Shown piece by piece: positions 1-43,112 of a DNA stretch of 64,000 bases (position 1 is the first letter of the stretch; each line of letters starts with the position of its first letter). Origin of the DNA: Acidobacteriota bacterium (GTDB taxonomy: Bacteria; Acidobacteriota; Thermoanaerobaculia; UBA5066); NCBI GenBank assembly GCA_029781975.1, contig JAKOVQ010000016.1:186001-250000 (forward strand), given 5' to 3'. The notes under the pieces were generated by a model that did not search any database, was not told where the DNA came from, and saw nothing but the letters and a program-made list of their open reading frames with translations. Position numbers and translations under genes: made by a program.

Positions 1-429
1 GTCCACGCCGGGGAGTGGGCCGGCCCCGAGTCCGTGGCCCAGGCCCTCGACGCGCTCCGCCCCGTCCGGATCGCCCACGGGATCCGGGCTGCCGAGGACC
101 CCGCTCTGGTCCGGCGCCTCGCGCGGCTCGGCACCTTCCTGGACGTCTGCCTCGCCTCCAACGCCGCGACCGGCGCCGTCGCCGACCCGTCGCGCCACCC
201 CGTCCGGCGGCTCCTCGCCGCCGGGGTCCGGGTGACGCTCTCCACCGACGACCCGGGGCTCTTCGGGACCACCCTCCTCGGCGAGTACCGGCGGCTCGCC
301 CGCCTGGGCGCGGGGGTTGGCGAGCTGCGGGCGGTGGCGGCGCACGCGCGTGCGGCCGCGCTGGTCGGCGGACCTTCGCGTCACGGCTCGGCGGGCGGCT
401 CCGGGAGAGCGGCCAGGACGCGCTCGTAG
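1..429 (+). CDS. add: Adenosine deaminase, C-terminal part (truncated by window edge)
   Basis: Adenosine deaminase hydrolyses adenosine or deoxyadenosine to the inosine form in purine salvage. The reading frame is open from base 1, so only the last 142 residues are present and the true start lies outside. Visible motifs are HAGE (which carries the catalytic Glu), RIAHGIRA (metal-site His) and STDDPGLFGT (metal-ligand and catalytic Asp pair), in the family order and spacing. The 3' end overlaps the convergent bshA by 49 bp. Its role as a deaminase is well supported, but whether it acts on adenosine or another purine cannot be settled from this part. Confidence 0.85.
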   Translation, partial: VHAGEWAGPESVAQALDALRPVRIAHGIRAAEDPALVRRLARLGTFLDVCLASNAATGAVADPSRHPVRRLLAAGVRVTLSTDDPGLFGTTLLGEYRRLARLGAGVGELRAVAAHARAAALVGGPSRHGSAGGSGRAARTRS

Positions 430-1523
430 ATCGCCACGTACCGGCTCACCATCTCCTCCGCGGTGAAGAGCCGGGTCGCGCGCTCGCGGGAGGCCTCGGC
501 GACCACGGCGTAGCGCTGGTCGTCCAGGAGGACCCCGACGGCGGCCTCCGCCAGGCCGTCGACGTCCCCCACCTCGCGGAGGAACCCCGTCTCGCCGTCC
601 ACGACCACCTCGGGGAGGCCTCCGGCGCGGTAGCCGAGGACCGGGATGCCGCACGCCTGCGCCTCGAGGGCCGACAGGCCGAACGACTCCGAGTCCGACG
701 GCAGGAGGTAGAGGTCCGCCGCCGGGACGATCGTCTCGACCGCCGGCGTGTTCCCGACGAAGTGCGCGTGCGCCGCGATCCCCTTCCTGCGGCAGAGCTC
801 CTCGGCCGCGGGCCGGTCGGGCCCGTCTCCGACCATCAGGAGGCAGCAGGGAACGCGCTTGCGGACCCGGTCGAACACCTCCACCACGTCGAGGACGCGC
901 TTGACGGGCCGGAAGTTCGAGACGTGCAGGAGGAGCCGCGAGCCGGCGTGCGCGTAGCACCCCTCGCGTCCGCCGGCCACCGGGCGCCAGCGCTCGGGGT
1001 CGACGAAGTTCGGCACCACCTCGATCTCCTGGCGCGGCGTGAAGACCTCCTCCGTCACCTTCCGGAGGTACTGCGACACGGCCGTCACCGCGTCGGAGCG
1101 CTCGATGCCGAAGCGGGTGATCGGGAGGTACGAGCGGTCCTGCCCGACGATGGTGACGTCCGTGCCGTGGAGCGTCGTGACGACGCCGAGCCGCCGCGGG
1201 AGGAGCATCTCGCGCGCCAGGTGCGCCGAGATGGCGTGCGGCAGGGCGTAGTGCGCGTGGACGACGTCGAGCCCTTCGTGGAGCGCCACGTCGACGATCC
1301 TCGTCGCGAGGGCGAGGTCGTAGGGCGGGTAGGTGAAGAGCGGGTAGGTCGGGACCGCCACCTCGTGGTACGACACGCGCTCGGCGAAGACGTTGAGGCG
1401 CGAGGGGACGGCGTAGGTGACGAAGTGGACCTCGTGGCCGCGCCGCGCCAGCTCGTGCCCGAGCTCGGTGGCGACGACCCCGGAGCCGCCGAAGGTCGGG
1501 TAGCAGGCGATCCCGATCCGCAT
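381..1523 (-). CDS. bshA: N-acetyl-alpha-D-glucosaminyl L-malate synthase BshA
   Basis: A 380-aa GT-B fold glycosyltransferase (family GT4) that joins UDP-GlcNAc and L-malate, the first step of bacillithiol synthesis in the cytoplasm. The N-terminal CYPTFGGSGVVATELG glycine-rich loop and the C-terminal ESFGLSALEAQACGIPV nucleotide-sugar motif are typical of BshA. It is the last gene of a bshC-bshB1-bshA operon. Its ATG shares one base with the bshB1 stop (TGATG). The 3' end overlaps the convergent deaminase gene. Length and operon context make the assignment strong. Confidence 0.93.
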   Translation of the reverse strand: MRIGIACYPTFGGSGVVATELGHELARRGHEVHFVTYAVPSRLNVFAERVSYHEVAVPTYPLFTYPPYDLALATRIVDVALHEGLDVVHAHYALPHAISAHLAREMLLPRRLGVVTTLHGTDVTIVGQDRSYLPITRFGIERSDAVTAVSQYLRKVTEEVFTPRQEIEVVPNFVDPERWRPVAGGREGCYAHAGSRLLLHVSNFRPVKRVLDVVEVFDRVRKRVPCCLLMVGDGPDRPAAEELCRRKGIAAHAHFVGNTPAVETIVPAADLYLLPSDSESFGLSALEAQACGIPVLGYRAGGLPEVVVDGETGFLREVGDVDGLAEAAVGVLLDDQRYAVVAEASRERATRLFTAEEMVSRYVAIYERVLAALPEPPAEP

Positions 1524-2251
1524 CAGAAGCCCGGCTCGAACCCCTCGAAGGCGGCGAGCGGGTCGGCGAGGAGGGGCGGGCGCGGCGCGACGAAGGCCTC
1601 GGCCGCGGCGACGTTCGCCAGGAGGCCGTACGCCCGGGCGCGCGCGAGGATCGCCTCGAGGAAGAGGGGCGAGGAGATGAAGGTCGAAGGCTCCTTCGAG
1701 GCGGGGTCGAAGAACTGGCTCCGGTAGGCGCGGATCGCGGCGACCTTCGTCTCGAGGGCTCCCGAGACGTCGACGAGGAACGAGGGCGCGGCGAGGTACG
1801 CCGACGGGTAGTAGACGACCTGCTGCGGCCTGTGCGGCGGCAGGCCGGTCTCGAGCGCCCGGAGCCCCGCGTAGAAGGTCGCGTCGGTGACGAGCCTCCC
1901 CGCCCGGACGTGGTCCGGGTGCCGGTCGTCCGGGAGCGGCGCGACGACGAGCCGCGGCCGGCGGCGCCGGACCACCTCGATCACGTCGAGCTCGGCCGCG
2001 CGGTCGGTCCTGAGGTTCCCGTCGCCGAGGTCGAGCCCGTCGCGGAACGACACGCCCAGGGTCCGGGCCGCCTCGGCGGCCTCGCTCGCCCGCGTCTCGG
2101 GCGTCCCCCGCGTCCCCGCCTCCCCCCGGGTCAGGTCGAGGATCGCGGTCCGGAGCCCTCTCCTCGAAAGGGTCGCGAGGAGCCCGCCGCAGCCCAGCTC
2201 CACGTCGTCGGGGTGGGCCCCGACGGCGAGGACGTCGACCGTCTCGTTCAC
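1523..2251 (-). CDS. bshB1: Bacillithiol biosynthesis deacetylase BshB1
   Basis: A 242-aa LmbE/PIG-L-type zinc deacetylase that removes the acetyl group from GlcNAc-malate, the second step of bacillithiol synthesis. The metal-binding GAHPDDVELGCGG motif lies at residues 9-21, and DDRHPDHVRAG supplies the third zinc ligand. The ORF track extends this frame much further upstream as a shadow of bshC. I chose the GTG at 2251 because the protein then begins just before the conserved strand and the codon forms a GTGA overlap with the bshC stop. Confidence 0.92.
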   Translation of the reverse strand: MNETVDVLAVGAHPDDVELGCGGLLATLSRRGLRTAILDLTRGEAGTRGTPETRASEAAEAARTLGVSFRDGLDLGDGNLRTDRAAELDVIEVVRRRRPRLVVAPLPDDRHPDHVRAGRLVTDATFYAGLRALETGLPPHRPQQVVYYPSAYLAAPSFLVDVSGALETKVAAIRAYRSQFFDPASKEPSTFISSPLFLEAILARARAYGLLANVAAAEAFVAPRPPLLADPLAAFEGFEPGF

Positions 2252-3840
2252 GCGTCGCCTCCTTCCCCGCCCGCCTCGACCTCGACGAGGCCGGGGGCGT
2301 CCCAGCGAACCGCTTCCTCGAGCGCCCCGACCAGCGCGCGCCGCCCCATCCGCGCGAGCCACGGGACGGGCGTGTAGATCCGCTCGGCGAGCGTCCCGTT
2401 CGGGACGACGAGGTCGGCCAGCCGCCTCACGGATCGAGCGAACGCCTCGTCCGCCCGCCCCGCGGCCGCCCGCGTCCTCTCGGCGAGCTTCCCGAAGGCG
2501 AAGCGGACGTTCTCCTCGGTCGCGTCGAGGCCCTTCCCCAGCGACGGGTCGACCGACAGGAGCCCCGACCGGACCTCCTCGAGCGAGGCGACGGCGGCGT
2601 CCCGCGCCCTCTCGAGCGCCCCGAGGAGCTCCCCGGCCCGGGCGGCGCCCCGCGCCTTCACGACGGCGTCGGGACCAGCGAGGAGCTCCTCGACCTCGAT
2701 GCCCGCCTTCGACAGGAGGCGGCGCTCCAGGGGGCCGAGGACCGCGACCATCGGCCGGAGGACCAGGACGGGCGGCACGACCCCCGCCCAGCCGAAGAGG
2801 GGGAGCGCCTGCGCCCAGTAGGCGACCTCGGCCGGCCCGAGGATGGTGGCGGCGACCGGATAGAGGACGGAGACCGCGACGGGCCGGCCGAGCGCGGAGA
2901 AGGAGGGGAGCCAGGCGCCGCTCTCGAAGCGCGCCGCGACCTCCTCCGGGGTGTAGCTCTCGTGCGGCCGCCCCTTCAGCTCGATCCGCCCGCCCGCCTC
3001 GCGCAGGAGCAGGCGCTCGCCGTCCACGCGAGCGAAGAGCGGAAGCGCTCCCGGCTCGCTGACGACCTGGAGCGGGTGACCGGCCGCCGCGAGCGCCGCC
3101 GCCCGCTCGTCGAGGAGCCGTCGGACCGTCGCGCGCTCGAGGACGATCCGGACGGCGAGCGGCACGAGCGGAGGCTTCTCGTCGGGCCGTGCCGCGTCGG
3201 CCAGGGGCTGGTCCGGGTCGTCCAGGAGCCACCGGAGCGTGTCGGCGAACGCCTCGAGGTAGGTCCTGCCGACGGTGAGGTCGCGAAGCGCCCCGAGGGC
3301 CTCGTCGTCGGCGAGGCTCCCCGCCTGGCTCCGGGCCGCCTCGAGGAGGGCGACGACGTCGGCGGAGATCCGCAGCCCCCCGACGGGGAGCCGGTTCCCC
3401 GCCAGCGCCGCGGCCTCCTCGCCCAGGTCGACGGGGCCCTCCGCCGTCGGCAGGACGAAGCGCGACACCTCCACCAGGTCGTGGTCCTCCGACGCGCACC
3501 AGAAGACGGGGGTCGCCGGCGTCCCCCGCTCCGCCAGGTCCGCGGCGAGCCCGCGGGCGGCGAGCGCCTTGACCAGCGTGAGGAGGGGCCCGGTGAAGAG
3601 GCCCACCTGCTGCCCGGTCAGGACGGCGGCCCGCGCCCCGGCCGCCAGGTCGCGGAGCGAGGCCGGCAGGTGAGGAGCCTCCCGCGGGGCGAAGCGCGCG
3701 AGGACCTCCGCCGCCCGGGCCGCGATCGTCCCGGCCGAGGCCGGCGGGCCGAGGAAGGGGGCGACCTCCGGGTCCCCCTCCGCATGGCCCCGGGGCAGGC
3801 GCGCGAGGCCCGGGAGCCTCCCGACCGGCAGCCTTCTCAC
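2248..3840 (-). CDS. bshC: Bacillithiol biosynthesis cysteine-adding enzyme BshC
   Basis: A 530-aa putative cysteine ligase that completes bacillithiol by adding Cys to GlcN-malate. Diagnostic motifs are LTGQQVGLFTGPLLT and FWCASEDHD in the N-terminal third, a predicted coiled-coil section near the C-terminus, and the LVVPNG segment. I placed the start at GTG 3840, not the ORF-track start at 3975. The upstream residues do not resemble the family, and the GTG overlaps the stop of a short upstream ORF in a GTGA junction. No Shine-Dalgarno is seen before this GTG, so translational coupling to that ORF is likely. Confidence 0.88.
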   Translation of the reverse strand: MRRLPVGRLPGLARLPRGHAEGDPEVAPFLGPPASAGTIAARAAEVLARFAPREAPHLPASLRDLAAGARAAVLTGQQVGLFTGPLLTLVKALAARGLAADLAERGTPATPVFWCASEDHDLVEVSRFVLPTAEGPVDLGEEAAALAGNRLPVGGLRISADVVALLEAARSQAGSLADDEALGALRDLTVGRTYLEAFADTLRWLLDDPDQPLADAARPDEKPPLVPLAVRIVLERATVRRLLDERAAALAAAGHPLQVVSEPGALPLFARVDGERLLLREAGGRIELKGRPHESYTPEEVAARFESGAWLPSFSALGRPVAVSVLYPVAATILGPAEVAYWAQALPLFGWAGVVPPVLVLRPMVAVLGPLERRLLSKAGIEVEELLAGPDAVVKARGAARAGELLGALERARDAAVASLEEVRSGLLSVDPSLGKGLDATEENVRFAFGKLAERTRAAAGRADEAFARSVRRLADLVVPNGTLAERIYTPVPWLARMGRRALVGALEEAVRWDAPGLVEVEAGGEGGDA

Positions 3841-3935
3841 GAGGCCCGCGCCCCGGCGCGAAGGGCCTCGGGCTCGCCCTGCGCGAAGGCCTCGAGGACC
3901 TCCCGGGACGTCCGGGCCGACGGTCCGATTCCCAT
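3837..3935 (-). CDS. Short leader ORF upstream of bshC (32 aa)
   Basis: A short ORF beginning MGIGPSARTSREVLEAF, too short for the ORF track. An AAGGAG Shine-Dalgarno sits about 6 nt before its ATG, the best ribosome binding site near the bsh operon. Its TGA overlaps the bshC GTG by four bases. It may be a leader that couples translation of bshC, or a small protein in its own right. I recognise no homology. The alternative is that bshC really starts here through a frameshift, which the sequence does not require. Confidence 0.5.
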   Translation of the reverse strand: MGIGPSARTSREVLEAFAQGEPEALRAGARAS

Positions 3936-4048
3936 CGTGATCTCCTTGTCGGGCCGCCGGCGCACCGGATCGCATCGGCAGCGGATGGGGAGGCGCCCGC
4001 CGGCGATGATAGTCCGCGCGCCCGGCGAGCGGCCCGCGACCCGCTCCG

Positions 4049-4327
4049 CTAGAAGCCCCAGAGCGCCAGCTCGTCGATGAGCGCCGCGATCTGCGGGTGC
4101 GCCGTCAGCTCCCGGTAGAGCCAGCCGTGCCGCTCCTTCACGTCCGTCAGGCGCGCCCGTGCGGCCTCGGCGTCCTTGCGCGCCGCCGCCTCGCGCAGGC
4201 CGTCCACCGCGCCGCGCTCCTCCGCGCCGAGCCGCTCGCCCAGCCGGCTGCTCAGGTCGTCGAACGCCGCGCCGACCCGTTCGGCGTGGGTGTCGTCCGG
4301 GGCCGGGGGCTTCTCTTCGTCGGTCAT
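4049..4327 (-). CDS. Unknown 92-aa protein at the 3' end of the atp operon
   Basis: A small acidic, probably helical protein with no signal peptide or membrane segment, beginning MTDEEKPPAPDD and ending ELALWGF. It starts 7 bp after the atpC stop and so is most likely co-transcribed with the ATP synthase genes. I do not recognise a family. The downstream gap of about 110 bp (3936-4048) holds only a weak -10-like TATCAT on the minus strand before the bsh leader ORF. A link to ATP synthase assembly would be guesswork based on position alone. Confidence 0.7.
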   Translation of the reverse strand: MTDEEKPPAPDDTHAERVGAAFDDLSSRLGERLGAEERGAVDGLREAAARKDAEAARARLTDVKERHGWLYRELTAHPQIAALIDELALWGF

Positions 4328-4334
4328 CGGGCGG

Positions 4335-4745
4335 TCACGCCTTCTCGGGCGCCGCGGCCGCGGCCAGCCGGGCGTCGGCGAAGGCGGCCTCCGCGTTGGC
4401 GTCGTCCAGCTCCTCGGAGCCGGAGACCGTCAGGCGGCGCGCCTCGGCCGCGGCCTTCTCGACCCGGGCCGCGGCCACGTCGACCGCATCGCGGGGGACC
4501 GCGTGGTCGGCCAGGACGCGGACCGCGTCGTCGGCGACCTGGACGAACCCGCCCCGGACGGCCACGCTGCCCCGGCGGCCGCCGGACGTCCAGGCGACGA
4601 TCCCCACGCCGAGGAGCGCGACGAGGGCGGCGTGGCCGGGGAGGATCCCCAGCTCGCCCCCCTCGCCCGGCAGGGTGACGGACTCCGCGGGGACGCCCTC
4701 GACGACCGAGCGCTCCGGCGTGACGACGGTGAGCGTCAGCGGCAC
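4335..4745 (-). CDS. atpC: F1 ATP synthase epsilon subunit
   Basis: A 136-aa epsilon subunit of the F1 central stalk, which couples gamma rotation to proton flow and damps ATP hydrolysis. The N-terminal beta-sandwich (LTVVTPERSVVEG, GEGGELGILPGHAALV) is well conserved, followed by a two-helix C-terminal region rich in Ala. The GTG start lies one base after the atpD stop. Confidence 0.93.
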   Translation of the reverse strand: MPLTLTVVTPERSVVEGVPAESVTLPGEGGELGILPGHAALVALLGVGIVAWTSGGRRGSVAVRGGFVQVADDAVRVLADHAVPRDAVDVAAARVEKAAAEARRLTVSGSEELDDANAEAAFADARLAAAAAPEKA

Positions 4746-4746
4746 G

Positions 4747-6192
<1,446 letters not shown>

Positions 6193-34246: not shown

Positions 34247-35011
34247 CTACCCGAATCGCAGCTCGTCGCCGTCCTGGAGGAGGCGGATGCGCGCCTCGCC
34301 CAGGGCGGCGAGGTCTTCCTTCAGCTCGTCCAGAGAGGGCGGCTTCATGTGGTAGAGGTTCACGGGGACGCCGGGCGGGAACTTGGTCATCTCCCGGCGG
34401 AGCGAGGCGGGCGTCAGGTGCTTCGAGACGTCGGCGATGCGGGCCATGCTGTCGGGGAACGAGCACTCGACGAAGATCGCCTCGAGGCGCGGGGCGCCCC
34501 GCGCGAGCTCCCAGATCGCCTCGGTCGGCCCCGTGTCGCTCGAGAAGACGACCTGGACCGTCCCGTCGGAGAGGAGGTATCCGAACGTCGGGACGACGTG
34601 GGTCACGGGGACGGCGACGCCCGTCAGCCCGCCCACCCGGAAGGGGACGCCCACGTCGATCGCCCGGAACGTCACGGCGGGGAGGAGGTGCGTCGGGATC
34701 CTCGTGAAGTCGGGCCAGAGCGCGTCGTTGAAGAGGTGCTGCTGGAGCAGGGTCGTCACCTCGCGCGGCGCGACGATCTCGATCGCCTGCTCCGTCTTCC
34801 CGAAGACGTTCTCGACCAGGAACGGGAGCGAGGCGACGTGGTCCATGTGGGAGTGGGTCACGAGGATGGAGCGGACGCGCGCCTGCTCGTCGAGGGAGAG
34901 CGCGGTGGTGAGGGCCCCGGCGTCGAGCGCGACGGTGCCGTCGATCAGGAACGAGGTCTGCCGGTGCCGGGGCGAGGAGCCCCCGTACGCCCCGAGGACG
35001 CGAATCTGCAC
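34247..35011 (-). CDS. Metallo-beta-lactamase-fold hydrolase, class II cyclic nucleotide phosphodiesterase-like
   Basis: A 254-aa MBL-fold protein. The zinc motif ILVTHSHMDHVASLPFL resembles the class II 3',5'-cyclic-nucleotide phosphodiesterase signature. VPVTHVVPTFGYLL, VVFSSDTGPTEAIWE (Asp ligand), IFVECSFPD and NLYHMKPP supply the remaining ligands. It could hydrolyse a cyclic nucleotide or another phosphodiester; RNase Z-like activity is an alternative. It lies downstream of the envelope genes but has its own -10-like TAGAAT 6 bp before the GTG. Confidence 0.8.
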   Translation of the reverse strand: MQIRVLGAYGGSSPRHRQTSFLIDGTVALDAGALTTALSLDEQARVRSILVTHSHMDHVASLPFLVENVFGKTEQAIEIVAPREVTTLLQQHLFNDALWPDFTRIPTHLLPAVTFRAIDVGVPFRVGGLTGVAVPVTHVVPTFGYLLSDGTVQVVFSSDTGPTEAIWELARGAPRLEAIFVECSFPDSMARIADVSKHLTPASLRREMTKFPPGVPVNLYHMKPPSLDELKEDLAALGEARIRLLQDGDELRFG

Positions 35012-35017
35012 GGTCGC

Positions 35018-35023
35018 ATTCTA
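35018..35023 (-). promoter_or_regulatory. -10-like TAGAAT six bases before the start codon
   Basis: TAGAAT (five of six) sits 6 nt before GTG 35011 in GC-rich DNA, with no Shine-Dalgarno between. This fits leaderless initiation. Confidence 0.45.
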
Positions 35024-35063
35024 GGACGGTCGGGGGACCCTCGGGGTGACGCCGGTCACGATT

Positions 35064-35106
35064 CCCGGCCGCCGGGGCTCGCGCCGGGCGGAGCGGCGCG
35101 GCCGGG
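35064..35106 (-). terminator. Inverted repeat after the propeller-barrel gene
   Basis: Perfect 9-bp arms (CCCGGCCGC and GCGGCCGGG) separated by 25 nt lie just beyond the stop of the 964-aa gene. There is no T-tract, so it may be a processing or pausing hairpin and not a true terminator. Confidence 0.3.
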
Positions 35107-35108
35107 GA

Positions 35109-38003
35109 CTAGAAGGTCCCGCTCCCGATGTAGAAGCTGACCTGCCAGTCGGAGGTGTTCTTGAAGTCCCAGAGGCGGGCGAAGTCGACGTTCCAGGGGA
35201 TCCCGAGGAAGAAGACGGTGAAGCCGGCGCCGTAGGCGGAGCGTCCGTCCTTCAGCTGTCCGTCCACGGCGAAGTGGAAGTCCTGGTCCTTCAGCCACGC
35301 GGCGCCGATGTCGAAGAAGATCCGCCCCCGGACCCCGGAGAAGTTGAGTCCGAACCCCGTGGCCAGGACGTCGATGAGCGGGAAGCGGAACTCCGAGTTG
35401 ACGTAGAAGGCCCGGTTGCCGATCTGGGTCCTGTAGTCGGCGCCGCGGAGGGTGTCGAGGCCGCCGAAGTAGAAGACGGTCGGCGCGTTCCCCTCGGAGC
35501 GCCCGCCGAAGCCGCGGAAGGCGAAGAGGGTCCGCCGCGAGATCGGAACGTAGGCGCGGGCCTCGCCGTAGACGTCCGACGTCAGGGTGCCGCCGTCGCG
35601 GAAGTCGGGGAGGTACCGGAACGCCCCGGTCAGGAGCTGCCCGCCGTGGGGGCCGAACGACCGGTAGCGGACCGAGTCGAACGTGAAGCCGGCGCCGGCC
35701 TGGAGCGTGTTGTCGGTCCGGGCCTCGTAGGTGGTGACCTGCGTCCCGTCGATGTTGTAGGCGAGGAGCGGGACGTCGAGCGTCCGGGAGAGCCCGCCCA
35801 GGAGCCCCTCCACCCGCGTGTACCGGTTGATCGGGTACGAGAGGATCCCGTCGAGGCCGGTCTCCTTGAAGATCCGGTCTCCCTGGACGTACGTCCCCTG
35901 CTGGTAGTCGACGCCGACGAAGTAGCTCCGGTTGTCGTAGGCGTGGAGCCCCCACTGGAGGCGGCGGGCCATGTTGAAGTAGACGAGGTCGAGGTTCGAG
36001 TAGCCGGCGATGGAGTCCCACCGGAAGAGGACCCGGCGGTCGCCGAGCATGTCCGAGAAGCTGAGGTAGATGCTGGAGACGAACGTCCCGTCGGAGCTGA
36101 CGCCGGCGTTCACACCCGCGTCGTCGACGAAGAGCTTGAACTTGACCTTTCCGAGCTTGTCGGGGTCGACCGTCACCTCGACGGCGGGGACGAAGCCGGC
36201 CACCGCCCCCTGGAGCATCGGCTGCGGCGGCAGCGCTTTCTCCTCCAGCTTCCGGAGCGGCTTCTTGGCGTCGGCCATGTAGAGCTGGAAGCGCCCCGCC
36301 TGGTATCCGGTGAAGAGGACCTTCTCCTGGCCGTCGGGCCCGACGAAGGGGGCCGGGCCGATGGCGGCCCCGATGACGTCGGTGTACTGGTAGAGCTCGC
36401 CGGTCGCGAGGTCCTGGGCGTAGACGTTGAAGATGCCCCCCCGCGACGACGCGAAGTAGAGCCGCTTGCCGTCGGCGGAGAGCGCCGCGTCCTCGTCGTT
36501 CGCCTCGCCCCACGTCACCTGCTCCACCTTGGAGGGGTCGTCCACCGGGAAGCGGACGATCTTCGTCAGGCCGGCGACGATCTTCGAGTGGTAGACGTAC
36601 TTCCCGTCCGGGGAGTAGACGGGGGCCGTGTCGTAGGCCTCGTCGTTGGTGAGGTTCGTCACCTCACGCGTCGCCAGGTCGATGGTGAAGATGTCGCGCG
36701 AGTTGTTCGCGATCCCCGAGAAGATGACCTTCGTCCCGTCGGGCGAGAAGGAGGGGGAGAGCGGCATGTCCGCCCCCACCTTGATCCGCGACAGGAGCTT
36801 GCCGTTCCGGGCCGAGAAGATCATCAGCTGCCGGCCGCGCTCGCGCCGGGCGAAGACGGCGATCCGGTCGCCGTCGGGGGCGAAGGAGAGGTCGCGGCCG
36901 CTCTCGGCCCCCTGCGTGAGGAACTGTGCCGAGATGTACTCGTACTTCGTGGTCCGGCCCGGCGTCAGGTCCTTGTAGAGCCGCCGCGTCTTGGCGGAGA
37001 AGAGCGCGATGTCGATGTCGTCCTTGTAGGTCGTCAGCGTCGCCACGAACTCGCCCGAGGGCGACGGCGCGGCGCCCACCTCGTAGGAGGCGCGCGCGCC
37101 GGGGCCGACGCGGTAGCGCTCCCCGTACTCGGACGCCTCTCCCTTCACGGCGAGAAGGGGGAGGTACTTCCGGCGGAGGTAGCGCCGGAACTTCAGGTCG
37201 AAGTCGTCGGGCTCGACCTCGAAGGCGCGCTTCAGGGCCGTCGCCACGTCGCGGCCGAGGAACGACCGGAACTCGAAGATCAGCTCCCGGACGGCGTCGC
37301 GCCCCCACTCGGACTCGATGAACTCGAAGAACGCGTGGCCGTAGCGGTAGGCCGGGTAGCCGCTGATGTCGACCCGGGTGATCGGGGGGATCTGGTCGGA
37401 GTTGACCGCGTCCCGCAGGAACATCCGGTCCTTCTCGTCCTCGTCGTTGGCGAAGTAGGACGCCATCCCCTCCATGAACCAGGTGGGGACCGGGGTCGTC
37501 AGGACGCGTCCGAGCCTGCCGCCGAAGAGGATCTCGTACTGGAAGATGTGGGTCAGCTCGTGCTGGATGAGGGCCTGGAGCTTCTCGTCCGGCAGGTCGA
37601 TCGGGAGGACCATCCGGTTCCGGGCCGGCTCGGCGAACGCCCCCACCCCCTCGGGGATGAAGTTCAGGATGACGTTGTTCTGCTCGAAGTCCGAGTGGCT
37701 CGCGTAGTAGAGGAGGGGGATCGGCTTCGGGACCTGGTAGTTGAGGCGCCGGGAGAGCTCGTCGTAGGCCGACTCGGCCATCGACGCCACCTTCCCGAGC
37801 GCCTTCTTCTCGCGGTCGTAGTGGTAGATCTGGAAGTGCGTCGACGCGTAGACGCTCCACGTGAAGGTGTCGTAGACGATCTTGTTCTGGCCCTGGGCGC
37901 GGGCCGGCCCCGGAACGAGGAGGAGGGCGGCCGCCGCCGCGGTCGAGAGGGCCGCCGAGAGGGCCGAGACCGCCCTCCCCGCGGCGCGCCTAGTCGAAGA
38001 CAT
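35109..38003 (-). CDS. Secreted metallopeptidase/beta-propeller/outer-membrane barrel fusion protein
   Basis: A 964-aa envelope protein with several parts. A signal peptide covers about residues 1-37 (cleavage after PARAQ). A gluzincin-like peptidase domain has HELTH at 148-152 and Glu178 in WFMEGMASYF as the likely third zinc ligand. A TolB/PD40-type propeller (about 300-600) has repeats such as SPSFSPDGTKVIFSG, APVYSPDGKYVYHSK and AALSADGKRLYFAS. A C-terminal barrel (about 660-964) resembles Omp85/surface-antigen strands, contains FYFGGLDTLRGADYRTQIGNR and ends in Phe. The protein is probably anchored in the outer membrane with the peptidase in the periplasm. It overlaps the upstream gene by 14 bp. 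Substrate is unknown. Confidence 0.82.
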   Translation of the reverse strand: MSSTRRAAGRAVSALSAALSTAAAAALLLVPGPARAQGQNKIVYDTFTWSVYASTHFQIYHYDREKKALGKVASMAESAYDELSRRLNYQVPKPIPLLYYASHSDFEQNNVILNFIPEGVGAFAEPARNRMVLPIDLPDEKLQALIQHELTHIFQYEILFGGRLGRVLTTPVPTWFMEGMASYFANDEDEKDRMFLRDAVNSDQIPPITRVDISGYPAYRYGHAFFEFIESEWGRDAVRELIFEFRSFLGRDVATALKRAFEVEPDDFDLKFRRYLRRKYLPLLAVKGEASEYGERYRVGPGARASYEVGAAPSPSGEFVATLTTYKDDIDIALFSAKTRRLYKDLTPGRTTKYEYISAQFLTQGAESGRDLSFAPDGDRIAVFARRERGRQLMIFSARNGKLLSRIKVGADMPLSPSFSPDGTKVIFSGIANNSRDIFTIDLATREVTNLTNDEAYDTAPVYSPDGKYVYHSKIVAGLTKIVRFPVDDPSKVEQVTWGEANDEDAALSADGKRLYFASSRGGIFNVYAQDLATGELYQYTDVIGAAIGPAPFVGPDGQEKVLFTGYQAGRFQLYMADAKKPLRKLEEKALPPQPMLQGAVAGFVPAVEVTVDPDKLGKVKFKLFVDDAGVNAGVSSDGTFVSSIYLSFSDMLGDRRVLFRWDSIAGYSNLDLVYFNMARRLQWGLHAYDNRSYFVGVDYQQGTYVQGDRIFKETGLDGILSYPINRYTRVEGLLGGLSRTLDVPLLAYNIDGTQVTTYEARTDNTLQAGAGFTFDSVRYRSFGPHGGQLLTGAFRYLPDFRDGGTLTSDVYGEARAYVPISRRTLFAFRGFGGRSEGNAPTVFYFGGLDTLRGADYRTQIGNRAFYVNSEFRFPLIDVLATGFGLNFSGVRGRIFFDIGAAWLKDQDFHFAVDGQLKDGRSAYGAGFTVFFLGIPWNVDFARLWDFKNTSDWQVSFYIGSGTF

Positions 38004-38709
38004 AGCGGTTGGCCTCCCGCTCCCTGACGACGAAGAGGCCGAGGAGCTGGTTCTCGAGGGCGAAGAGGTTCTCGAAGAGGCCGACCATCTCGTCCACGGC
38101 GCGGCGCGGCTTCTCCTTGGAGTCCTTGAAGGTCTCCTGGAAGAGCTTCGCTCCCGTCCGCCCGTCGAAGGCCAGGACGGTCACCTCGAACGTGAACCCG
38201 GTCGACTCGACGAGGACCTGCCGGTAGTAGGTCCGGCGGTCGATCGGGCTGACGTACTCCTCGGTCTTGTACCCCGACTTGTCCTCGACCTTGAAGTCGA
38301 CGATCCCCGAGAGGACGATGTCCGCGCCCAGGCGGGCGCCGAGCGCCTTCCAGAACTCGGTCGCCTCGCCGAGGTCCTTCAGGTTGCTCGCCGGGAGCTT
38401 CACGTCGGCCGGCATGGTGACGACGGTCATCTTCGTCCGCTTCGCCAGCTGCTTGCCGAAGTGGCGCCGGAACTCGGTGTCCAGGTCGAGGTCCCGGTAC
38501 CGCGCCGAGTCCTTCCTCTCGGTGAGCTTGGAGGCGACGAGGAAGGGGGCGAGGGTGATCCGCTCGCGGCCGGTCACCGCGAGCTTCGGGCGGAGCGGGA
38601 GCTTGAGCCGGACCTCCCCCGCGCCGGCGGCGAGCGGCCGGGCGGGAAGCACGGCGGCGAGAGAGGCCAGCGCGGTGGCCGCGGCGAGCAGGCGACGGGA
38701 CGCTCTCAT
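37990..38709 (-). CDS. Secreted protein of unknown function
   Basis: A 239-aa protein with a signal peptide (MRASRRLLAAATALASLAAVLPARPLAAG). The mature part has RITLAPFLVASKLTER, LGADIVLSGIVDFKVED, and TGFTFEVTVLAFDGRTGAKLFQETF. This is an alternating layout similar to CsgG/FlgT-like or penicillin-binding-protein-activator lipoproteins, but I do not see a certain family match, and there is no lipobox Cys. ATG 38709 overlaps the TPR lipoprotein stop (ATGA), and its own 3' end overlaps the large barrel protein gene. All three are probably one transcript and one envelope module. Confidence 0.75.
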   Translation of the reverse strand: MRASRRLLAAATALASLAAVLPARPLAAGAGEVRLKLPLRPKLAVTGRERITLAPFLVASKLTERKDSARYRDLDLDTEFRRHFGKQLAKRTKMTVVTMPADVKLPASNLKDLGEATEFWKALGARLGADIVLSGIVDFKVEDKSGYKTEEYVSPIDRRTYYRQVLVESTGFTFEVTVLAFDGRTGAKLFQETFKDSKEKPRRAVDEMVGLFENLFALENQLLGLFVVREREANRYVFD

Positions 38710-39257
38710 CTCGGGGTCGGCGTGGGAGTCGGTGCCGGCGGCGGCGCGGCGGGCGGTGCGGGGGCCGGCGCTCCGGGGGGCGACGCCGGCTCGCCGGCCG
38801 GGGCGGCCACGGCCGGCGCCGCGTGCGTCCCGGGCTGCTCCGGCGTCGCGGCCGGGGCCGCGGGCGGCGGGGGCGACAGCGACGAGCCCCCCGCGCGCTG
38901 GAGGGCCGTGTAGTACTCCGCGAAGCGGGCGTAGTTCCGCTTGATGTACGAGTCCTGGGGCTGGAGCGCCAGCGCCTTCTTGTACGCCGAGAGGGCCCGG
39001 GCGGGCTCCCCCACGGCCTCGAGCGCGACCGCGAGGTTGTTCTGGATCTGGGCGTCCTCGGGGGCGAGCTCCGCCGCCTTCTGGAAGCGGAAGAGGGCCT
39101 CCCGCCAGAACCCCTTCTTCGCCATCTGCGCGCCGTACGCCTTCTGGGACTTCGCGTCGCTCTTCGGGACCGACGCGCACCCCGCGGCTCCCGCGAGCGC
39201 CAGGGCGAGGGCCCCCGCGAGCGGGGCGGTGCGCGAGCGGCGGCTGATCCTCTGCAC
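38706..39257 (-). CDS. TPR-repeat lipoprotein
   Basis: A protein of about 183 aa with a lipoprotein signal (RISRRSRTAPLAGALALALAGAAGC) and about three TPR-like helical pairs (GFWREALFRFQKAAELAPED, QIQNNLAVALEAVGEPARALSAYKKALALQPQD). A long Pro/Ala-rich tail follows. TPR domains bind partner proteins, so it may scaffold the two envelope proteins encoded downstream. I prefer GTG 39257 because a TATAAT -10 covers the earlier starts; ATG 39269 and GTG 39281 are alternatives in frame. Confidence 0.78.
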   Translation of the reverse strand: MQRISRRSRTAPLAGALALALAGAAGCASVPKSDAKSQKAYGAQMAKKGFWREALFRFQKAAELAPEDAQIQNNLAVALEAVGEPARALSAYKKALALQPQDSYIKRNYARFAEYYTALQRAGGSSLSPPPPAAPAATPEQPGTHAAPAVAAPAGEPASPPGAPAPAPPAAPPPAPTPTPTPR

Positions 39258-39267
39258 GGGCGGGGGC

Positions 39268-39275
39268 ATTATAGT
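39268..39275. promoter_or_regulatory. Overlapping divergent -10 elements for dprA and the envelope operon
   Basis: The same eight bases read TATAAT on the minus strand (39273-39268) and TATAGT on the plus strand (39270-39275). No good -35 is seen on either side. Polymerase could use only one direction at a time, so dprA and the envelope operon may compete. Confidence 0.55.
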
Positions 39276-39298
39276 CGGCACCCTTCACCGGAGAGCCC

Positions 39299-40459
39299 AT
39301 GGAAAGCAATCCCGGGACCGTCCGCGCCGACCTCGAAACAGGCCTCGGCTTCTGCCTCCTGGCCCGCGGCGCGGCCGCGCGCGCCCTCCGAAGGCTCCTC
39401 GCCGCCCGGGGGAGCGCGGCGGCCGTCCTCGAGCTGTCTCCCGCGGAGGCCGCGGCGCTCGCCGGCGAACCCGTGGAGGTCGTCGCGCCCCTCCTCGCGC
39501 CGGAGCGGGCTCCCGGGCTCGCCGGACAGCTCCGGCGGGCCGCGGCGTGTGGCGCACGGACGATCCTCCTCACCGACCCCGAGTACCCGCCGCTCCTCAG
39601 GGAGACCGCCGACCCGCCTCCGGTCCTCGTCGCGCGCGGGCGGGAGCTCGGGGCGGGCCCGGCCGTGGCGGTCGTCGGCTCGCGCCGGGCGACGCGGGCG
39701 GGGCTCGAGGCCGCGCGCGTCCTCGCGGGAGGCCTCGCCCGGGCCGGGGTCACCGTCGTCTCGGGCTTCGCCCGCGGGATCGACGCGGCTGCCCACGCCG
39801 CCGCGCTCGACGCCGGCGGCACGACCTGGGCGGTCCTCGGCTGCGGCGCCGACGTCTGCTACCCGGCGGGACAGGCGGCGCTCCTCGACCGCGTCCTCGG
39901 CTCGGGCACCGTCCTCTCCGAGTGGCCCCTCGGGACGGAGCCGCTCCCGTTCCACTTCCCCGTCCGCAACAGGATCATCGCGGGGCTCTCGCGGATGGCC
40001 GTGGTCGTGGAGGCGGCCGAGCGGAGCGGATCGCTCATCACCGCCCGCTGCGCCGCCGAGGCGGGGCGGGACGTCGGCGCCGTCCCCGGGCCCGTCGCCT
40101 CCCCCGTCTCGGCCGGGACGAACGCCCTCCTGAAGGACGGGGCGATCCTCGTCCGCGACGCCGCGGACGTCCTCGCCGAGCTCCCCGGGGAGGACCGGTC
40201 GCGCCTCGGCCTCGCCGGGACGGCCGGCGTCCGTCCGGCGGCCCCCCGGGCCGGGGCCGCGCCGGAGGGGCTCGACCCGGACGCAGCGGCGGTCTGGAGC
40301 GCCCTCGACCCGCGCGAGGAGCGGGACGCGGACCTCCTCGCCGAGGCGTCGGGCCTCCCGGCCGACCGCCTTTCCGCGGCCCTCGTCCTCCTGGAGCTCC
40401 GGGGCCTCGCCGAAGCTCTCCCGGGGGCGCTTTTCGTCCGCCGCGCGGCGGGGGCTTGA
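39299..40459 (+). CDS. dprA: DNA processing protein DprA
   Basis: A 386-aa protein that binds incoming single-stranded DNA and loads RecA during natural transformation. The Rossmann-like core has AVVGSRRATRAGLEAA, VVSGFARGIDAAAHAAAL and PVRNRIIAGLSRMAVVVEAAERSGSLIT, followed by a winged-helix C-terminal domain (about residues 320-380). Extra residues precede the core as a SAM-like domain. GGAGAG precedes the ATG. It is followed by topA, a very common pairing. Confidence 0.95.
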   Translation: MESNPGTVRADLETGLGFCLLARGAAARALRRLLAARGSAAAVLELSPAEAAALAGEPVEVVAPLLAPERAPGLAGQLRRAAACGARTILLTDPEYPPLLRETADPPPVLVARGRELGAGPAVAVVGSRRATRAGLEAARVLAGGLARAGVTVVSGFARGIDAAAHAAALDAGGTTWAVLGCGADVCYPAGQAALLDRVLGSGTVLSEWPLGTEPLPFHFPVRNRIIAGLSRMAVVVEAAERSGSLITARCAAEAGRDVGAVPGPVASPVSAGTNALLKDGAILVRDAADVLAELPGEDRSRLGLAGTAGVRPAAPRAGAAPEGLDPDAAAVWSALDPREERDADLLAEASGLPADRLSAALVLLELRGLAEALPGALFVRRAAGA

Positions 40460-40484: not shown

Positions 40485-43112
40485 ATGTCGAAGTCGCTCG
40501 TCATCGTCGAGTCCCCCGCCAAGGCCGGGACCCTCGCCAAGTTCCTCGGGCGGGACTTCACGGTCCTCGCCTCGTACGGCCACGTGCGCGACCTCCCGAA
40601 GAAGGGGATCTCGGTCGACCGCGAGAACGGCTACGAGCCGACCTACGAGCTCCTGGCCGGCAAGCAGAGGACGATCGCCGACCTGAAGAAGGAGGCGAAG
40701 GGAGCCGGGGACATCTACCTGGCCGCCGACCCCGACCGCGAGGGGGAGGCCATCTGCTGGCATCTCCACGAGATCCTGCGGCCGGGGGCCCCGAACGCCC
40801 GGTTCCATCGCGCCGAGTTCCACGAGATCACGAAGAGCGCGGTCCAGCGCGCGATCGAGCACCCCGGGGAGATCGACCTGAACCGGGTCAACGCCCAGCA
40901 GGCGCGCCGGATCATCGACCGGCTCGTCGGCTACGAGGTCTCGGACCTCCTCTGGAAGAAGGTCTGGCGCGGCCTCTCGGCGGGACGCGTCCAGACGGTC
41001 GCCCTCCGCGTCATCGTCGAGCGCGAGGTCGAGCGCGAGCGCTTCACCCCCGTCCCCTACTTCACCCTCCCGGCGACCGTCCGGAAGGGCGACGCGGCCT
41101 TCCCCGCCCGGGTCGTCGCATGGCGCGGGACGCGGCTGAAGTTCGACGGGAGCGACCCGCGGCTCGCCACGCGCGACGAGGCCGAGGCGGTGAAGGCGCA
41201 CGTCGACGCCTCGCGGCTCGAGGTGGTCTCGGTCGAGTCCCGGGAGAAGCGGACGCAGGCGGCTCCCCCCTTCACGACGCCCAAGCTCCAGCAGGCCGCG
41301 GCGCGGAGCCTCGGCTTCTCGGTCCGCCGGACCATGCAGGTGGCGCAGCGGCTCTACGAGGGGAAGCCGATCTCGGGCCGCGGCACCATCGGCCTGATCA
41401 CCTACATGCGGACCGATTCGACCCGGACGGCCGAGGAGGCGCTGGCCGCCGTCCGCGACTACATCGGGACGACGTACGGAGCCGACGCCCTCCCCGACCA
41501 GCCGCGCCGGTTCAAGCAGAAGAAGGACGCCCAGGACGCCCACGAGGCGATCCGGCCGACCTCCCTGGACCTGCCGCCCGAGGCGATCGCCGCCGACCTC
41601 GCCCCCGACGAGCTGAAGCTCTACCGGCTGATCTGGAGCCGGTTCGTCGCCTCGCAGATGAGCCCCTCGGTCACCGACGTGACCTCGGTGGAGATCGAGG
41701 CCCGCGCCGAAGGCTCGCCCGACCGGGCGCTCCTCCGGGCGTCCGGCTCGGTCCTGAAGGACCCGGGCTGGCTCCGCGTCTACGGCCAGGTGGCCGACGC
41801 CGAGGAGGGGGTGGGGACGACGAACGGCGATGGGGGCGAGGGCGGCGACGAGGGGAAGGTCCGCCTCCCGCAGCTCGCCGAGGGGGATGCGCTCCTCCTC
41901 GCCGACCTCTCCGTCGAGGGGAAGGAGACGCAGCCGCCGCCCCGCTTCAACGAGGCCTCGCTCGTGAAGTTCCTCGAGGAGAACGGCATCGGCCGCCCGT
42001 CCACCTACGCCGAGATCCTCCGGAAGATCGAGGACCGCGAGTACGTCAGGAAGAAGGACCGCCGCTTCCTCCCGACCCTCCTCGGGCGGATCGTCGTCGA
42101 CCTGATGAAGGACGGCTTCGACGACTTCTTCCAGACCGAGTACACGGCGCGGATGGAGGAGGAGCTGGACGAGGTCGAGGAGGGGACGCTCGACTGGCGG
42201 CAGGCCCTCGCGGAGTTCGACGGGAAGTTCGTGAAGGACCGCGACCGGTCGCTGAAGAAGATGGCCTCGATCAAGGCCGGGATCCCGCTCGCCGAGGTGG
42301 CGACGCGGTTCCCCGACTTCCCCCTCCCGGAGGGGGTCGGAACGACCTGCCCGAAGAGCGGGGACGCGCTGAAGCTCCGGATGGGGAAGAACGGCGTCTT
42401 CATCGCCTGCGCCGGCTACCCCGACTGCGACTTCACCGTGAACGTCCCGGAGCCGGAGGAGGACGAGATCGACGCCTCCGAGCTCGAGGGGCAGACGTGC
42501 GAGGAGTGCGGGAGCCCGATGAAGCTCCGCTCGGCGCGGGACGGCTCGACGTTCCTCGGCTGCACGGCCTACCCGAAGTGCCGGAACACCGTCGCCGTGA
42601 AGGTGGCGGGCGGGAAGGCCGAGGCCAAGCCCGACCTGCCGACGGGCGAAACGTGCCCCGAATGCGGCCACCCGCTCGTCTCCAAGCACGGCCGCTACGG
42701 GGACTACGTCGCCTGCTCGAACTATCCCGCCTGCCGGTACAAGCCGCCGAAGCCGGTCATCTCGACGGGCGTGACCTGCCCGGAGTGCGGGACCGGCGAG
42801 ATCCTGGTCCGCCGCGGGCGGTTCGGCCCGTTCTACGGCTGCTCTCGCTACCCGGCGTGCGGGAAGAACTTCCGGGTGCGGCCCGTCCCGAAGGCGTGCC
42901 CCTCCTGCGGCGCCCCCTACCTCCTCGTCCGCGACCGGAAGGCGGGGCCCTTCTTCGTCTGCGAGAAGGAGGGGTGCGGATTCGACGAGCCGGCCTCCGA
43001 CCTCGACGCCTTCGCGCCGGTGGCGCGCGTGATGGCGGCCGCGGCCGCGGCCCCCGCGACGCCCCCGGCCCGCAAGGGGGCTCGGAAGGAGAGGCGCCGG
43101 ACGGCGCCCTAG
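40485..43112 (+). CDS. topA: DNA topoisomerase I
   Basis: An 875-aa type IA topoisomerase that relaxes negative supercoils. The TOPRIM part has VIVESPAKAGTLAKFLG and AADPDREGEAICWHL, and the active Tyr is in GLITYMRTDSTR. Five C-terminal zinc-finger-like repeats follow (each of the TCPECG...CSNYPAC type, about residues 615-830). The first has lost one Cys (TCPKSGD). A basic tail KGARKERRR ends the protein. The TAG stop interlocks with the TAG of the convergent HEAT gene in a single CTAG. Confidence 0.97.
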   Translation: MSKSLVIVESPAKAGTLAKFLGRDFTVLASYGHVRDLPKKGISVDRENGYEPTYELLAGKQRTIADLKKEAKGAGDIYLAADPDREGEAICWHLHEILRPGAPNARFHRAEFHEITKSAVQRAIEHPGEIDLNRVNAQQARRIIDRLVGYEVSDLLWKKVWRGLSAGRVQTVALRVIVEREVERERFTPVPYFTLPATVRKGDAAFPARVVAWRGTRLKFDGSDPRLATRDEAEAVKAHVDASRLEVVSVESREKRTQAAPPFTTPKLQQAAARSLGFSVRRTMQVAQRLYEGKPISGRGTIGLITYMRTDSTRTAEEALAAVRDYIGTTYGADALPDQPRRFKQKKDAQDAHEAIRPTSLDLPPEAIAADLAPDELKLYRLIWSRFVASQMSPSVTDVTSVEIEARAEGSPDRALLRASGSVLKDPGWLRVYGQVADAEEGVGTTNGDGGEGGDEGKVRLPQLAEGDALLLADLSVEGKETQPPPRFNEASLVKFLEENGIGRPSTYAEILRKIEDREYVRKKDRRFLPTLLGRIVVDLMKDGFDDFFQTEYTARMEEELDEVEEGTLDWRQALAEFDGKFVKDRDRSLKKMASIKAGIPLAEVATRFPDFPLPEGVGTTCPKSGDALKLRMGKNGVFIACAGYPDCDFTVNVPEPEEDEIDASELEGQTCEECGSPMKLRSARDGSTFLGCTAYPKCRNTVAVKVAGGKAEAKPDLPTGETCPECGHPLVSKHGRYGDYVACSNYPACRYKPPKPVISTGVTCPECGTGEILVRRGRFGPFYGCSRYPACGKNFRVRPVPKACPSCGAPYLLVRDRKAGPFFVCEKEGCGFDEPASDLDAFAPVARVMAAAAAAPATPPARKGARKERRRTAP

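Follow-up and report, generated by a model that had tools for sequence, protein, structure and literature searches.

Omp85 proteins with additional domains

To our knowledge, Omp85 proteins have long been held to carry out insertion or translocation only, with PlpD being the enzyme-bearing exception studied so far. Omp85 barrels have both of their termini in the periplasm. In PlpD, a patatin-Omp85 protein, a lipase domain and a POTRA accompany the barrel, the enzyme domain has been found experimentally to be periplasmic, against an earlier export model, and the protein works in lipid homeostasis (PMC11116518). A further arrangement is that of WD40-Omp85, one of the ten Omp85 subfamilies of Heinz and Lithgow (2014), where a TolB-like propeller precedes an Omp85 barrel and POTRA domains are lacking, and which was likened to a BamA-BamB fusion; the text of that work mentions neither a peptidase before the propeller nor operon partners, and the 'metallo' Omp85 class it describes is defined by PF00149 (PMC4104836). 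Proteolysis at an Omp85 barrel is known from BepA, a soluble periplasmic HExxH zinc peptidase of family M48 with a TPR of its own, which acts on an outer-membrane protein by maturing or degrading LptD at BAM (PMC8423444).

The 964-aa acidobacterial protein described here is like PlpD in that an enzyme domain is N-terminal to an Omp85 barrel, but it has a putative zinc peptidase and a propeller in place of a lipase and POTRA, together with two partner genes. As its propeller is directly N-terminal to the barrel it falls within WD40-Omp85, the members of which may be the same proteins as those considered here. It shares a six-bladed propeller with TolB (E 4e-27) and differs from BepA in that the peptidase is covalently tied to the barrel, and M48 was not among the family matches from the domain search. 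Propeller-Omp85 proteins are already described. In the open-access literature searched the peptidase domain and its invariance appear to be undescribed, as do the operon and the fused genes, and neither a description of a peptidase-propeller-Omp85 architecture nor an experimental study of any homologue was found there.

Organisation of the locus

Within the window, the whole stretch of 64,000 nucleotides that was analysed, three genes on the minus strand overlap at their ends, as the initial annotation had claimed. The order, as read from the open reading frames, is a TPR lipoprotein of 191 aa (38706-39281, assigned from the reading frame, domain matches and homologues in other loci), a secreted and presumably periplasmic 239-aa protein of the FlgT-middle/CsgG/PelC type (37990-38709, assigned by profile and predicted fold) and the 964-aa peptidase-propeller-Omp85 fusion protein (35109-38003, assigned from domain matches, a family profile, AlphaFold2 and Foldseek). 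The first two genes overlap by 4 bp (ATGA) and the second and third by 14 bp. On the opposite strand, upstream of the operon, are dprA (39299-40459) and topA (40485-43112), both named by sequence.

An MBL-fold hydrolase resembling RNase Z and class-II PDE (34247-35011, minus strand; Lactamase_B_2, E 6e-16) is encoded 97 bp downstream of the 964-aa gene. Close relatives (44-75% identity) have it beside the operon, and distant ones do not. It was considered as a fourth member of the operon and rejected, as no signal peptide is seen by eye and the adjacency is patchy, thus it probably has a separate function, as had been suspected from the start.

Domain structure of the 964-aa protein

That a HELTH metallopeptidase, a TolB-like propeller and a barrel are joined in a single chain had been proposed from the open reading frame, and both profile searches and an AlphaFold2 model agree with this. 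The model, made from a 48-row alignment, has a mean pLDDT of 88 and a pTM of 0.86, the latter suggesting that the predicted domains are packed in a fixed arrangement. A low-confidence signal peptide is followed by a mixed domain that is the candidate zinc peptidase (residues ~45-285; 37149-37871, minus strand), which holds the HELTH helix and has helices at 139-160, 174-185 and 190-201 among others. Next comes a TolB-like (PD40) beta-propeller (residues ~300-595; 36219-37106, minus strand) in which six blades can be counted, and then the Omp85 barrel (residues ~620-961; 35121-36146, minus strand), with its strands at 625-959. Failure of structure prediction to form a barrel had been named as grounds for giving up this view of the protein, and the model has a barrel of 16 strands.

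The strength of the matches differs between the domains. With the single sequence PD40/TolB is strong (TIGR02800, E 3.8e-27), and the Omp85, BamA and Peptidase_MA_2 matches are weak, with Omp85 and Peptidase_MA below the curated cut-off (20.9 bits against 32.4 for PF13485). Across the family Peptidase_MA_2 matches 34 of 48 members at 0.01, the best member having an E-value of 3.5e-9. When the profile made from 48 homologues was compared to solved structures it matched TolB chains (E 2e-40) and, over its C-terminal third, BamA (E 6e-13), and it touches the aminopeptidase structure 3cia at profile positions 129-238 (E 0.01). Foldseek with the predicted model also matched TolB and BamA (BamA E ~1e-11, TMt 0.59-0.65 to isolated barrels). 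The best 50 Foldseek matches listed are all to TolB, BamA or further propellers, so that the peptidase fold is assigned from the motif, the Pfam matches and the helix pattern. PF00149, the family of the 'metallo' class, is that of the metallophosphoesterases, the fold of which differs from that of a zinc peptidase.

The BamA-related 16-stranded barrel and an L6 motif of the VRGF/Y type place the protein within the Omp85 superfamily, yet it lacks the one or more POTRA before the barrel that BamA and TamA have. No POTRA was matched in the domain search, and the model leaves only ~35 residues between the propeller and the first barrel strand, which is too short for a POTRA. On sequence and model together, the 964-aa chain is predicted to be a protease domain, a TolB-like propeller and a POTRA-less Omp85 barrel.

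Conservation of the putative catalytic site

An HExxH motif followed by a Glu after about 25 residues is the spacing of the gluzincin zinc peptidases, and the 964-aa protein has this pattern of the Peptidase MA clan. The HELTH zinc-binding and catalytic motif (residues 148-152; 37548-37562, minus strand) and the likely third zinc ligand, Glu178 (37470-37472, minus strand), fall in invariant alignment columns. H148, E149, H152, W175, E178 and Y219 are unchanged in all 49 aligned proteins, which include some of only ~25% overall identity; HExxH, E178 and Y219 are likewise kept in 20 homologues from Gemmatimonadota and one from Salinibacter, that is in 70 of the 70 inspected. Such invariance argues for the peptidase domain having been kept as an active enzyme. 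At the other end of the chain the L6 motif is LRG (L852-R853-G854; 35442-35450), with R853 found in 48 of 49 proteins, and the 20 Gemmatimonadota homologues have xRG(Y/N) at the same place. With the peptidase site and the L6 motif both conserved, it is apparent that both ends of the fusion are under selection.

The two partner proteins

The first gene had been read as encoding a TPR lipoprotein and this holds, the product having a signal sequence, a Cys at a lipobox-like GAAGC, TPR repeats at residues ~47-120 and a Pro/Ala-rich tail. It matches Tgl/PilW and generic TPR; BamD (TIGR03302) was not among the matches listed for it, and another gene in the genome is BamD.

A possible CsgG/FlgT-like layout had been suggested for the second protein, which is supported both by family matches and by the predicted fold. 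The 239-aa protein matches FlgT_M with an E-value of 8e-6, although PF16539 is below cut-off by sequence, and FlgT_M is matched by 21 of 28 members of its family at E<=1. Neither the single sequence nor the profile gave any match to solved structures, and it is the predicted fold that gave the identity: the AlphaFold2 model (pLDDT 89) has Foldseek matches between 1e-7 and 1e-3 to a flagellar ring subunit (1e-7), FlgT (1.5e-6), PelC and CsgG (5e-5) and also HpaA. FlgT, HpaA, PelC and CsgG are periplasmic or associated with the outer membrane, and several of them build rings. The 239-aa protein shares its predicted fold with FlgT, CsgG and PelC; flagellar, curli or Pel genes were not seen adjoining its gene. 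The N-domain of TolB is of this broad fold group as well, a weak likeness that one member gives at E 0.12. Several homologues of the 239-aa protein have a lipobox-like Cys.

Linkage and fusion of the partner genes

Partners were looked for at 50 acidobacterial loci, 45 of which belong to clade A, the branch of the family tree that holds the 964-aa protein. A profile search located both upstream genes, with order and strand kept, at no fewer than 40 of the 45 clade A loci, so that the three-gene set sought in other genomes is indeed kept, and TPR homologues adjoin the fusion gene in at least 40 of the 50 loci. Of the five clade A loci that remain, one is cut at a contig end (L011), one has the fused form, overlooked in that search since the frame used as anchor was a longer one (L067), a further one shows the TPR gene next to a gap of fitting size (L077), and two are without both partners (L074, L075). 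Conservation across the phylum excludes chance as the origin of the three-gene pattern. Neither is the set a mere bystander of a conserved region, because at the 15 loci without dprA or topA nearby (L063-L068, L073-L080, L086) it is kept in 12 or 13. The device had been called self-contained from the single chain, which for the acidobacterial version does not stand given that two conserved partners are nearly always present. The Gemmatimonadota loci lack both the TPR and the CsgG-like partner, thus the partners are not needed everywhere.

A single chain encoded by fused TPR and CsgG-like genes is found at five loci (L064:10893-11915, L067:10748-11758, L068:6224-7855, L072:10933-12075 and L087:11039-12058). 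These fusions sit on two separate branches of the tree, with unfused sisters L061/L062 and L066, and the supported branches force two changes, a single change being found in 0% of 200 bootstrap trees. Repeated gene fusion is a classical sign that two products work in contact, therefore fusion on two separate branches is evidence that the TPR and CsgG-like proteins touch each other.

Other genes are found beside the fusion in particular groups. In one Gemmatimonadota subfamily 9 of 17 loci have a SPOR-domain lipoprotein immediately after the fusion gene (L019:11124-12602). A cytidylyltransferase-like gene of the HldE/RfaE type, presumably of ADP-heptose synthesis, is downstream of a shorter Gemmatimonadota paralogue in all 8 loci (L111:4666-5187). 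In several acidobacterial loci FtsE- and FtsX-like genes are on the opposite strand beyond the homologue of the 964-aa gene (L064:6205-7781).

Distribution and inheritance

A sample of 297 Acidobacteriota and 61 Gemmatimonadota genomes was searched. As counted from the table of matches, ~145 of the 297 Acidobacteriota genomes have a strong match (E <= 1e-50), mostly at full length, including 31 of the 35 genomes of the source's own class, the source among them. The remaining Acidobacteriota have weak, propeller-type matches only, and three large families without the fusion (f19, f30, f32) are among them. All but about one (G348) of the 61 Gemmatimonadota genomes have a strong match, the matches mostly spanning profile positions 5-957 and often present in two or three copies per genome. 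It had been put forward that homologues might exist as single domains only, which would have spoken against the fusion; this is rejected, as the search for the same domain order elsewhere found it in full in two phyla.

Strong and mostly full-length matches in both phyla mean that the peptidase-propeller-Omp85 fusion is old. The tree separates acidobacterial clade A from a side with the Gemmatimonadota and a second acidobacterial paralogue (L081-L085). The fusion gene neighbours topA and dprA in one phylum and rpsF, rplI, rsfS and smc in the other, all named by sequence, and housekeeping neighbourhoods of this kind in each phylum suggest vertical inheritance of the family. A relative without a barrel is found on the plasmid pSR116 of Salinibacter ruber, a 633-aa peptidase-propeller protein annotated as 'basic secretory protein-like' (L089:4902-6803); beyond this the plasmid search returned only ordinary TolB or other propellers.

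BAM, Tol and peptidases of the host

The host genome is 5.4 Mb and 96% complete. Its own BamA has five POTRA stretches, another POTRA-Omp85 is present, and a separate BamD and true TolB are over their cut-offs (the curated one for TolB); no BamB was found in the genome. By the test of TIGR02800 the 964-aa protein is not the TolB of Tol-Pal, scoring 95 bits against a cut-off of 343. The idea that the operon replaces BAM or Tol was rejected, since separate BamA, BamD and TolB make it an extra system; the operon is an addition to both. Four M48 peptidases are also encoded. In the same genome TamB, POTRA and Omp85 occur in one open frame of 1966 aa, a TamB-TamA-like fusion (G000:C6:50900-58900; L134, ORF 255-6155, minus strand), of which L133 is the 1358-aa C-terminal part.

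Possible functions

It is tentatively suggested, at somewhat less than an even chance, that the operon encodes an outer-membrane-anchored periplasmic zinc metalloprotease complex that matures envelope proteins or controls their quality. The location, activity, substrates and complex with the 964-aa protein that we infer would have the C-terminal barrel set into the outer membrane, its two ends toward the periplasm, and the six-bladed propeller directly under its mouth, carrying the peptidase domain. Propellers gate substrates in other peptidases such as tricorn and DPP IV, and the propeller of TolB binds peptides. Here the propeller would presumably recognise or gate protein substrates that the zinc site cuts, and the TPR lipoprotein and the CsgG/FlgT-fold protein would form a subcomplex, probably an adaptor, at the inner leaflet of the outer membrane. 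The position of propeller and peptidase beneath the barrel, and so in the periplasm, is reasoned from the topology of Omp85 termini and from the precedent of PlpD (PMC11116518). Most likely it would mature outer-membrane proteins or lipoproteins or check their quality, which likens it to BepA at BAM in role and not in ancestry, and among the functions named in the initial annotation processing would be the likeliest. Counting against such a protease complex, the four M48 peptidases could already do BepA-type work. Somewhat less probable is the wider claim that this is an ancient and vertically kept protease complex of Acidobacteriota and Gemmatimonadota in which a POTRA-less Omp85 barrel carries a peptidase-propeller, a proteolytic branch of Omp85 beside BAM. 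Recognition of the substrate, its cleavage and the anchoring in the membrane would then all be tasks of a single chain.

As the barrel is related to BamA by both profile and fold, the operon might alternatively be an accessory barrel-assembly machine, with the barrel inserting clients like BamA, the propeller in the role of BamB, the TPR lipoprotein in that of BamD and the peptidase removing stalled clients. The propeller and the TPR lipoprotein do resemble BamB and BamD in kind, BamB is the component not found in the genome, and WD40-Omp85 has been compared with a BamA-BamB fusion (PMC4104836). This is unlikely all the same, since the POTRA, the client-handling part of BamA, is absent, the genome already has a POTRA-bearing BamA and a BamD, the matches of the TPR protein are to Tgl/PilW and generic TPR and not to BamD, and, as PlpD suggests, protein insertion is not required of an Omp85 barrel. 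Export, which had also been proposed, would have the barrel carry the peptidase-propeller part out to the cell surface in a type Vd-like manner, as was first described for enzyme-barrel chains such as PlpD (discussed in PMC11116518), and the peptidase-propeller module does exist in a barrel-less version, for example on the Salinibacter plasmid. Yet two folded domains of ~550 residues, placed before a 16-stranded barrel, would need to cross it, the conserved and periplasmic-looking partners would be left without a role, and the enzyme domain of PlpD has itself turned out to be periplasmic (PMC11116518), all of which makes surface display improbable. It is rather improbable, too, that the operon serves envelope homeostasis tied to peptidoglycan or lipopolysaccharide, with a barrel that anchors or senses and a peptidase that cuts one regulatory protein. 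The SPOR-domain lipoprotein after one Gemmatimonadota subfamily (9/17 loci), the HldE-type cytidylyltransferase-like gene near another (8/8 loci) and the action of PlpD in lipid homeostasis (PMC11116518) are in keeping with this, but the neighbourhoods vary between subfamilies and are mostly of housekeeping genes, and nothing similar adjoins the acidobacterial version.

If the proposed outer-membrane-anchored protease is correct, a second class of enzyme, a protease, would be found on Omp85, which would make the scaffold a general platform for enzymes on the inner face of the outer membrane. Nearly all of the sampled Gemmatimonadota genomes and about half of those sampled from Acidobacteriota have the fusion, and this would also put a name to a core function of the envelope in two environmental phyla that are abundant and little studied.
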